Shown piece by piece: positions 7,403 to 56,002 of a stretch of DNA of 64,000 nt. The notes under the pieces are model-generated. The model made no database searches, had not been told where the DNA came from, and worked only from the letters and a program-made list of their open reading frames with translations. Source of the DNA: Bacillota bacterium (GTDB lineage Bacteria > Bacillota > Ch66 > Ch109); assembly GCA_013178275.1 (NCBI GenBank), contig JABLWZ010000001.1, forward strand, positions 186,001 to 250,000. Direction: 5' to 3'. A program made the position numbers and the translations under genes. Positions within the stretch are counted from its first letter, which is position 1. Each line of letters begins with the position of its first letter.

Positions 7403-7651
7403 TTAGGCTACGTACCGCTTTCTCAGGAGCCCGAACAGCTCGCGGTCCTTGGTCCGGTTGCGGGAGTCGCGATGCTGGTCCTGCATGACGGTCTCCAGCT
7501 CGAACATACGGTAGTTCTCCAGGCGCTTCCTCTTCTCCCTTATCGCGCGTCTCTCTACGGCCTTGGTAACCAGGTACACCCCGGTGAAGAAACATATCTT
7601 CGCTACCACATAAAACGCTATCAGTACCCAGAAAAGTTTTAGTGTGACCAT
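7403..7651 (-). CDS. Small membrane/coiled-coil protein A under sigma-54 control
   Basis: 82 residues; I do not recognise a named family. One N-terminal transmembrane helix (LFWVLIAFYVVAKICFFTGVYLV) is followed by a basic, charged helix (AVERRAIREKRKRLENYR) that looks coiled-coil-like, and a tail ending KDRELFGLLRKRYVA. It is a clear paralogue of the protein at 8131-8388: both share the FYxxxKIxFFxxVYLVTKxxERRA core and the KDxExFG...RxxA end. ATG 7651 lies 8 nt after AGGAGG. A near-perfect sigma-54 promoter (7707-7721) is 56 bp upstream and a strong terminator follows, so it is a single-gene transcript. Confidence 0.8.
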   Translation of the reverse strand: MVTLKLFWVLIAFYVVAKICFFTGVYLVTKAVERRAIREKRKRLENYRMFELETVMQDQHRDSRNRTKDRELFGLLRKRYVA

Positions 7652-7706
7652 AACCCATACCTCCTCTTGCTTTTTTACCCTCGGTCCCATTTGCCATCAA
7701 TAATAC

Positions 7707-8130: not shown

Positions 8131-8388
8131 TTAAGCAATGAACCGGTTGTGCCGGGCTCCGAAGATTTCTTTGTCCTTGGTACCGGTCTTGACCTGCTGC
8201 TCGTATTCTTCGACCATCATCTGAAGCTCCACCAGGCGGTTGTGCTCGATCCGGTCCTGCTTGTCTTTCATTGCCCGCCTCTCTATCGACTTGGTGACCA
8301 GGTAAACCGAGATGAAGAACGCTATCTTCACCGTGGCGTAGAAGGCCACAAAGATCCAGAATATTGTCATCGCTGCGATCCCGGTCAT
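8131..8388 (-). CDS. Small membrane/coiled-coil protein B under sigma-54 control
   Basis: 85 residues, paralogue of the 7403-7651 product and without a family name I recognise. It has an N-terminal membrane helix (IFWIFVAFYATVKIAFFISVYLV), then the charged helix SIERRAMKDKQDRIEHNR and a Glu/Gln-rich stretch, ending KDKEIFGARHNRFIA. ATG 8388 is 6 nt after GGGGGAG. A sigma-54 promoter (8449-8463) lies about 61 bp upstream, the same geometry as for gene A. A membrane-anchored coiled-coil stress or envelope protein is one possibility; function is unknown. Confidence 0.8.
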   Translation of the reverse strand: MTGIAAMTIFWIFVAFYATVKIAFFISVYLVTKSIERRAMKDKQDRIEHNRLVELQMMVEEYEQQVKTGTKDKEIFGARHNRFIA

Positions 8389-53955: not shown

Positions 53956-54166
53956 AGGTCCTCCGGGTTATATTGTGCCATAAAATTAAAGGCTTTTTAC
54001 ATTTTTTTTGCAATTTTTTCTGGTTAACCTATTTTATTCATCTGGTTGGAGGTATATTTCTGCTCCCGGTTCTTGGCGGCCGGGGGGCAGGTAGATGTGG
54101 ACAGGACTTGCGAATAGTCAGTGCGGTTTAAGCAAAAGATAGATGAAAGGAGGTTCGTTTTCGCAT

Positions 54167-54547
54167 ATGAAAAACTTCAACGGGCTTTTGGCCAAGTTCA
54201 TCCTTTTCCCTTTGTTGGTATTCGTTTTCATACGGTTGATGCCCAATATGCTCAGTTTCTATACCCCGGGTCAGGTTATAACCCTTTCCTGGCTGGTCGG
54301 GCTTGCCCTTTACCTGATAGACTTGACCCGCTTGTCCAGTTGGGGACCGCTGAGCACTTCTTTGGCGGATTTTCTGGTGAGTGCGGTCATGGTCTGGGGC
54401 TTTGCCTTTATCGTCAAGGTATCCATCTACATCAATTTCTGGAGCGTGTTGCTGGTGGCTTTGGGGATAGCTGTACTAGAGTACCTGATCCACCGCTTCA
54501 TTCAATCCTTCCCGGTGGATCTACCCCAACAAAAACCGCGTCCCTAG
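54167..54547 (+). CDS. Small membrane protein, YndM/DUF2512-like
   Basis: 126 residues from ATG 54167; an AGGAGG lies 13 nt upstream. Four hydrophobic helices (FILFPLLVFVFIRLMP, VITLSWLVGLALYLIDL, TSLADFLVSAVMVWGFAFIV, WSVLLVALGIAVLEYLIH) and the pattern FIxFPL...GDLxIL-like match DUF2512 proteins. Sporulating Bacillota often carry it; role unknown. Convergent with, and overlapping by 4 bp, the riboswitch-linked small gene. Confidence 0.65.
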   Translation: MKNFNGLLAKFILFPLLVFVFIRLMPNMLSFYTPGQVITLSWLVGLALYLIDLTRLSSWGPLSTSLADFLVSAVMVWGFAFIVKVSIYINFWSVLLVALGIAVLEYLIHRFIQSFPVDLPQQKPRP

Positions 54548-54717
54548 TGCAGAACCCTTTTCAGTCTCGAGTTGTAGGTCAGCAGCCGCCGGGCCCGCAT
54601 GGTTCCTGCTTTCCTCTTCCCGGCCCTGGCGGTCGGAACGAAAAACAACCGGTAGAGCGCCTCTTTTTCCTCTGCGGTGAGGACCAGTGATATCTGGTTC
54701 CTGTTCAGAGCTATCAT
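54544..54717 (-). CDS. 57-residue basic protein downstream of a c-di-GMP riboswitch
   Basis: Begins MIALNRNQISLVLTAEEKEA at ATG 54717, after GGGGAAAGG; an upstream in-frame ATG lies inside the terminator hairpin and is unlikely. The product is strongly basic in its second half (ARAGKRKAGTMRARRLLTYNSRLKRVLH) with a short amphipathic N-terminal helix. No family is recognised. The c-di-GMP-I aptamer (54792-54890) and terminator hairpin upstream mean it is probably switched by c-di-GMP. It could also be a relic of a longer gene. Confidence 0.5.
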   Translation of the reverse strand: MIALNRNQISLVLTAEEKEALYRLFFVPTARAGKRKAGTMRARRLLTYNSRLKRVLH

Positions 54718-54749
54718 CCTTTCCCCGGTATTAATTGCCGAAGCAACAA

Positions 54750-54771
54750 GCCCCATCAATTGTGATGGGGC
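54750..54771 (-). terminator. Terminator hairpin of the riboswitch expression platform
   Basis: Minus strand GCCCCATCA-caat-TGATGGGGC, a 9-bp perfect stem, followed by TTGTTGCTT. It lies 20 nt after the aptamer and 33 nt before the ATG at 54717. Confidence 0.65.
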
Positions 54772-54791
54772 AAACAGTTCTCCCGTGAAGA

Positions 54792-54890
54792 CCGGTCATC
54801 CTCGGTGGCAACCAGGCTGGCATAGGTTTTACCTTTAGCCCCTTGGCTTTGCGTCACGCCCTTTCGGAGCGCTTTGCCCTTATCACAGAT
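54792..54890 (-). promoter_or_regulatory. Cyclic di-GMP-I (GEMM) riboswitch
   Basis: Minus-strand RNA carries the class signature: GGGCAAAGC (54879-54871), a GNRA tetraloop in CTCCGAAAGGG, the conserved GACGCAAAGCC (54855-54845), then CCTATGCCAGCCTGGTTGCC (54826-54807). These are the P2 receptor, tetraloop and P3 elements that bind c-di-GMP. A terminator hairpin follows at 54750-54771, so it should act by transcription attenuation on the 57-codon ORF. The 5' edge and P1 pairing are set only roughly. The rest of 54891-55066 shows an AT-rich region with no gene. Confidence 0.88.
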
Positions 54891-55066: not shown

Positions 55067-56002
55067 ATGCGGGGAGATGCGGTCCGTTCAATCGTAGCGT
55101 TTGCGGTCATCCTTTCACTAATGGTGTTTTCTATCGCTCTGAGCACCGCTTCCGGAGCATGGTTGATTTCGATGGATGCACCTCTGGTTAAGGTTTCCAG
55201 TTCAGCGGCTGCTTCCTCTCCGCCGCCAGACCCGGCTCCCGCGCCTCCGCCCGTCGAGCAGACCGCGGCAAAGGCCCCCGATCCGCCGGCTGCCGAGCCG
55301 CCAGCTACGGAGCCGCCAGTTAAAGATCCCCCTCAAAACCCGACTGTCTCCGATGACTATCCATCTGACAAACCGATTAAAAACACCAACCCCTCGGCCA
55401 AAAAAATCGCTTTCCTGACCTTTGACGACGGTCCCTCCGAGGAGGTAACCCCGATAATCCTCGACGTGCTCCGCGAACACAAGGTTAAAGGAACCTTTTT
55501 CGTGGTCGGCTTCAACGCTGAGAGACACCCGGAAGTCCTGCAGCGGATAGCCGCCGAGGGCCACCGGATAGGGAACCACTCCTACAGCCACCGCATCAAG
55601 AGCATCTACCGGGACTCCAACGTCCTGCTGGATGAGATACAATCCTGCGACAACGCCATAGCCAGCGCGACCGGGCTTCACCCCCGGATCTTTCGGGCTC
55701 CCGGCGGCTCAAGGCCTTTCCTCAAGCCGGCTCTGGCGGCCAAGGTGACGGAGGCTGGATACCAGTACTTCGACTGGAACGTCTGCCCCGGCGATGCTGT
55801 GGTCAATGGACTGACCGCTGACCAAATGACCAGAATCACCCTGCAGCAGGCCAGCACCAAGAGTTATATCATCGTGCTGCTGCACGACTCTTACACGATG
55901 CAGCAGACAGCCAAGGCCCTGCCCCGGATCATCAAGGGCCTGCAGGAACAGGGTTTCACCTTCCAGGTGATCGAACCCGACACCGCGCCTATCCATTTTT
56001 AA
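55067..56002 (+). CDS. Secreted polysaccharide deacetylase
   Basis: 311 residues. N-terminal signal or anchor helix (9-30), a Pro/Ala-rich linker (about 45-110), and a NodB domain with FLTFDDGPSEE (Asp pair), GNHSYSHR (metal His), FRAPGGSRP, FDWNVCPGDAV and a late LLHDSYT. It removes acetyl groups from peptidoglycan or another wall glycan. ATG 55067 is 7 nt after GGAGG. It is next to a c-di-GMP riboswitch but on the opposite strand, so it is not directly controlled by it. Confidence 0.93.
   Translation: MRGDAVRSIVAFAVILSLMVFSIALSTASGAWLISMDAPLVKVSSSAAASSPPPDPAPAPPPVEQTAAKAPDPPAAEPPATEPPVKDPPQNPTVSDDYPSDKPIKNTNPSAKKIAFLTFDDGPSEEVTPIILDVLREHKVKGTFFVVGFNAERHPEVLQRIAAEGHRIGNHSYSHRIKSIYRDSNVLLDEIQSCDNAIASATGLHPRIFRAPGGSRPFLKPALAAKVTEAGYQYFDWNVCPGDAVVNGLTADQMTRITLQQASTKSYIIVLLHDSYTMQQTAKALPRIIKGLQEQGFTFQVIEPDTAPIHF

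Follow-up and report, generated by a model that had tools for sequence, protein, structure and literature searches.

The minus strand of a 64,000-nucleotide stretch of a Bacillota genome (hereafter the window) carries a c-di-GMP-I riboswitch to which we give about an even chance of acting as an OFF switch on the transcription of a gene for a lineage-specific basic protein of 57 residues. The aptamer, a terminator-like hairpin, two mutually exclusive pairings and the gene-like codon usage of the downstream frame are computed features of this locus, which is organized as follows.

55067..56002, plus strand: polysaccharide deacetylase gene, divergent (PF01522, 113.1 bits)
54804..54888, minus strand: c-di-GMP-I aptamer (Rfam RF01051, 74.8 bits)
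54873..54887, minus strand: proposed antiterminator strand 1, the aptamer 5' strand UGUGAUAAGGGCAAA (duplex with 54774-54761, -16.9 kcal/mol)
54761..54774, minus strand: proposed antiterminator strand 2, UUUGCCCCAUCACA, overlapping the terminator 5' arm (pairing and nested folds)
54750..54771, minus strand: intrinsic-terminator-like hairpin GCCCCATCA-CAAT-TGATGGGGC, then TTGTTGCTTC (terminator scan and d-score)
54544..54717, minus strand: basic orphan ORF of 57 aa with an ATG start (codon usage gene-like; no homologue found)
54143..54547, plus strand: DUF2512 gene, convergent (PF10710, 50.1 bits, cut-off 26.5)

The covariance model for the c-di-GMP-I (GEMM-I) class matches positions 54888-54804 with E 7.5e-13, far above its gathering score of 35 bits, over its full length (model positions 1-87 of 87) and with no non-standard pair in the alignment. 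This is the sole riboswitch that Rfam finds in the whole window, and its score lies within the range of the 19 copies scored in the genome (68.1-87.3 bits). The alignment displays a GAAA tetraloop in P2, CUAAAG...UAUG in P3 and GGGCAAA, so that tetraloop and receptor are both present. Judged by its place in the aptamer, the ligand-selective nucleotide is presumably G. PMC9262584 supports the assignment of this selective G; many cGAMP-type variants have A at the same position. On sequence grounds, the window RNA is a predicted c-di-GMP binder, an ordinary and well-formed GEMM-I riboswitch. The aptamer proposed in the initial annotation is thus confirmed by the Rfam scan, and the limits then given to the locus (54544-54890) are correct within a few bases.

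The source genome (4.77 Mb in 55 contigs) belongs to a sparsely represented part of the phylum. In an EF-G comparison, which may omit the genome's own record, a Syntrophomonadaceae MAG comes closest among named records (76% identity), and the next records, including Moorella and Syntrophaceticus, reach ~60-63%. At least 19 GEMM-I aptamers score over the cut-off in this genome, a lower bound obtained from 150 of 285 first-look candidates. Besides the window copy and one located at the end of a contig, where no gene follows, there are 17; since two sets of these are in tandem, they stand before 14 different ORFs. Eleven of these 14 first downstream ORFs have a Pfam match at E up to 0.01, namely HD (twice), response regulator, FecR, transglutaminase, sigma region 4, flagellar rod (FlgB), Fn3-associated repeats (twice), CHASE4-PAS and a sub-threshold zinc ribbon. 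Control of signalling and surface genes by c-di-GMP is therefore normal in this genome; and since 3 of the 14 targets have no such match, an uncharacterised target is not peculiar to the window.

Other features of these copies, and of the window at large, are recorded here for themselves. The three targets without a Pfam match at E up to 0.01 have 146 aa (L006), at least 444 aa (L008) and 81 aa (L014). The protein encoded behind three near-identical tandem aptamers (L015, L016 and L017; C52:106406-106780, minus strand) carries Fn3-associated repeats and chitobiase C-terminal repeats. A triple-tandem c-di-GMP riboswitch of natural origin has been published (PMC4759541). A tandem pair (L005 and L009; C54:178087-178326, minus strand) precedes a 291-aa transglutaminase-like protein. 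At one further copy (L007, C23:165985-166074), the aptamer strand UAAGGGCA is complementary to UGCCCUUA of the next terminator hairpin (p 0.003), and a later ORF matches sigma-70 region 4. Within the window, two similar-looking small membrane-protein ORFs with gene-like codon usage lie close together on the minus strand (7403-7690 and 8131-8388).

A linker of 32 bases separates the aptamer from the hairpin at 54771-54750, which has nine pairs, six of them G-C, a computed stability of -15.6 kcal/mol and a d value of 2.1 in a d'Aubenton-Carafa-type formula. Its tail is T-rich but imperfect, giving a weak U tract that a short UUCG-type hairpin, seen in the sequence, overlaps. Terminator-like sites of the same loose kind occur at chance level in the scanned stretch (3, against 3.0 in shuffles). 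Aptamer and hairpin are compatible and coexist in the computed folds. A terminator-type expression platform is supported, and the terminator reported in the initial annotation corresponds to this 9-bp hairpin.

The direction of control was approached by folding the RNA at successively later 3' ends (nested transcripts). Aptamer pairs are present at moderate population in transcripts ending from 54804 to 54770, and the aptamer pair is gone (0.002) when the end reaches 54766. In transcripts ending at 54763-54753, where the terminator 5' arm has emerged and the 3' arm is incomplete, the GGGCAAA-UUUGCCC antiterminator pair forms with a probability >0.99, and the aptamer can be retained only at a cost of 6.1-6.6 kcal/mol. 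Once the transcript ends between 54750 and 54700, the terminator has a probability >0.9 with or without the aptamer. The complete hairpin being thermodynamically favoured even without ligand, the switch must be kinetic; and since the antiterminator captures the aptamer 5' strand while the terminator is still unfinished, termination is expected to be favoured when c-di-GMP is bound.

From these folds we infer how the RNA would respond to its ligand. At low c-di-GMP, the aptamer 5' strand (GGGCAAA and the preceding leader) would pair with the emerging terminator 5' arm (UUUGCCC...AUCACA); this pairing would destroy the ligand pocket and delay the hairpin, and the polymerase would continue to the ORF. 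When c-di-GMP is abundant, it would retain the 5' strand in the aptamer and leave the terminator arm free, so that the hairpin would form and transcription would end ahead of the start codon. In our judgement of these models, the OFF direction is likely.

Shuffle controls give the antiterminator moderate support. The observed cost of keeping the aptamer is reached in none of 400 cases when arm and loop are shuffled, and in 22 of 400 when the linker is shuffled with them. Dinucleotide shuffles of the 75 downstream bases give p 0.02 for the pairing, and mononucleotide shuffles of the arm alone equal it in 6 of 5000 trials. Leader shuffles pair as strongly in 659 of 5000 trials, indicating that the leader contributes little specificity. 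Ranked against the window's own downstream region, the 5' strand of the window comes second of 19. A comparable signal appears in only two other copies of the genome, L002 (p 0.017) and L007, which indicates that the arrangement is not a general platform of this genome.

The ORF behind the switch extends from an ATG at 54717 to a stop at 54544 and is preceded by a weak Shine-Dalgarno-like GGGG (54726-54723). Its product contains 13 K/R against 3 D/E, with a computed pI of 11.7. In a codon-usage model, it scores 0.348 bits per codon; 239 real gene segments of the same length have a mean of 0.420 (sd 0.224), and 34% of them score below it. Open shadow segments reach this score in only 2 of 367 cases, a contrast flattered by the training of the model on 35 long window ORFs pre-filtered by its own score; the remaining five frames over the ORF all score <0. 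The small gene of the initial annotation thus stands as far as its coding character goes, on codon usage, and we infer that it is quite likely to be translated. AlphaFold2, run on the single sequence, gives a weak model (mean pLDDT 61.4, pTM 0.27) with helices at residues 15-25 and 38-56. The protein may be a new c-di-GMP effector, its position behind the switch being the one ground for such a function.

The homologues of the protein sought after the initial annotation did not appear in the sampled genomes, genome contigs, viral contigs, plasmids, phages or profiles. By tblastn, with E-values calculated per genome, the ORF matches itself alone in its own genome, 21 other genomes among 101 relatives at E up to 1 (best 0.07), and 10 others among 398 sampled genomes of the phylum (E 0.007-0.046); both last counts are below chance expectation. 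Thirteen aligned loci among the relatives proved to be unrelated peptides, some with stops. The class of the source organism is represented by four genomes in the searched set, and none of the three others has a match. Profile and sequence searches were likewise negative in Pfam (E up to 1), NCBIfam (10), PHROGs (10) and PDB (10). Two other origins were considered and set aside. The middle of the ORF was examined as a possible genomic repeat; its short matches in the own genome fall in long open frames, are scattered and of low identity, and are taken as ordinary GC-rich codon strings. A relation to the sigma-region-4-like protein behind L007 gave no alignment. The open-licence literature searched yielded nothing on small or orphan genes of this kind as c-di-GMP switch targets.

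The surroundings are as the initial annotation described them, with a convergent DUF2512 gene and a divergent wall deacetylase, both confirmed by their Pfam matches. The DUF2512 frame has its first ATG at 54143 and an alternative ATG at 54167 preceded by AAAGGAGG. It lies tail to tail with the ORF, both stops falling within one CTAG (54544-54547). A tblastn search of the three class relatives leaves the DUF2512 protein unmatched; with the PF10710 profile, two of the three do contain the family, and the source genome has another copy of it. A GEMM match was found, within the flanks scanned, at none of 30 DUF2512 loci elsewhere (one each from 30 of 101 genomes with a DUF2512 match), nor near four deacetylase loci of the class relatives. 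DUF2512 is not named in the open-licence literature searched. On the minus strand, a scan for intrinsic terminators detects no terminator-like site between 53100 and 54750; together with the overlapping stops, this is compatible with read-through RNA also covering DUF2512.

Two rival readings have their basis in PMC9943018. This survey puts c-di-GMP switches ahead of all other families in their tendency to lie antisense (152 antisense against 2,554 sense, P 4.6e-62), and it holds that small genes which follow such switches and lack orthologues are probably errors of annotation. The riboswitch might accordingly serve in antisense, with read-through RNA entering DUF2512, the ORF being secondary or spurious, and early termination by c-di-GMP relieving antisense interference. 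Any transcript beyond the ORF is indeed antisense to DUF2512, given the overlapping stops, and the empty terminator scan points the same way, but it is weak evidence with Rho outside its reach. Furthermore, the opposite-strand gene comes next only if the ORF is not a gene, whereas its codon usage is gene-like, and the other DUF2512 loci lack a GEMM aptamer in their scanned flanks; antisense action appears unlikely. The survey's view of annotation errors, the weak Shine-Dalgarno and the ORF's want of homologues in all searches favour instead a relic: a riboswitch parted from the gene it once controlled, followed by a permanent terminator and then by an ORF that is either fortuitous or in decay. 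The initial annotation had named two signs of such a relic. The absence of homologues was found; constant termination at 54750 is opposed by the computed antiterminator, since a pairing across the terminator arm is still there. A fully consensus-like aptamer, scoring inside the range of its genome, and a gene-like ORF also argue against decay, and this explanation is equally doubtful.

It is improbable that the switch is of the ON type or translational and works through pairings outside secondary-structure folding. In its favour, the hairpin dominates the full-length RNA whether or not the aptamer is formed, the U tract is weak, and closely related aptamers can work either way (PMC9262584), but a pilM-type ON switch requires mutual exclusion of aptamer and hairpin, an arrangement seen in none of the folds, where the two coexist. 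It is tempting to imagine one switch with two outputs, in which read-through at low c-di-GMP would make both a lineage-restricted basic protein, probably nucleic-acid-binding, and an antisense RNA over the DUF2512 membrane-protein gene; the conjunction is very improbable. The preferred reading is an OFF switch for the 57-residue protein. New outputs of c-di-GMP can be reached quickly through the targets of its riboswitches, and the putative target here is a small protein from a poorly sampled Bacillota lineage for which the searches gave no relatives. As a GEMM switch with a read-through transcript that overlaps a convergent gene, the locus is also open to experimental test.

The other GEMM-I riboswitches of the same genome share the aptamer class, and several have terminator-like hairpins downstream, but 11 of their 14 targets have a Pfam match (one below its cut-off) whereas the window target has none. 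The antisense-acting c-di-GMP-I switches of PMC9943018 resemble the window's switch in having a GEMM-I RNA that points into a convergent neighbour, the ends overlapping; in the window, however, a gene-like ORF lies between the aptamer and the convergent gene. The closest characterised switch is Cd1, which PMC9262584 places upstream of the flagellar operon of Clostridioides difficile and describes as a terminator-type OFF switch acting on transcription, with an antiterminator that competes with an aptamer and a terminator able to coexist. The same source reports that closely related aptamers serve as ON or OFF switches. Compared with Cd1, as described there, the window has a GEMM-I aptamer, a compatible intrinsic-terminator-like hairpin downstream, a predicted competing antiterminator and a predicted OFF direction in common. 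The two differ in that the Cd1 antiterminator uses the aptamer 3' strand whereas that of the window is predicted on the 5' strand, and in their targets, flagellar genes for Cd1 and an orphan small ORF here.
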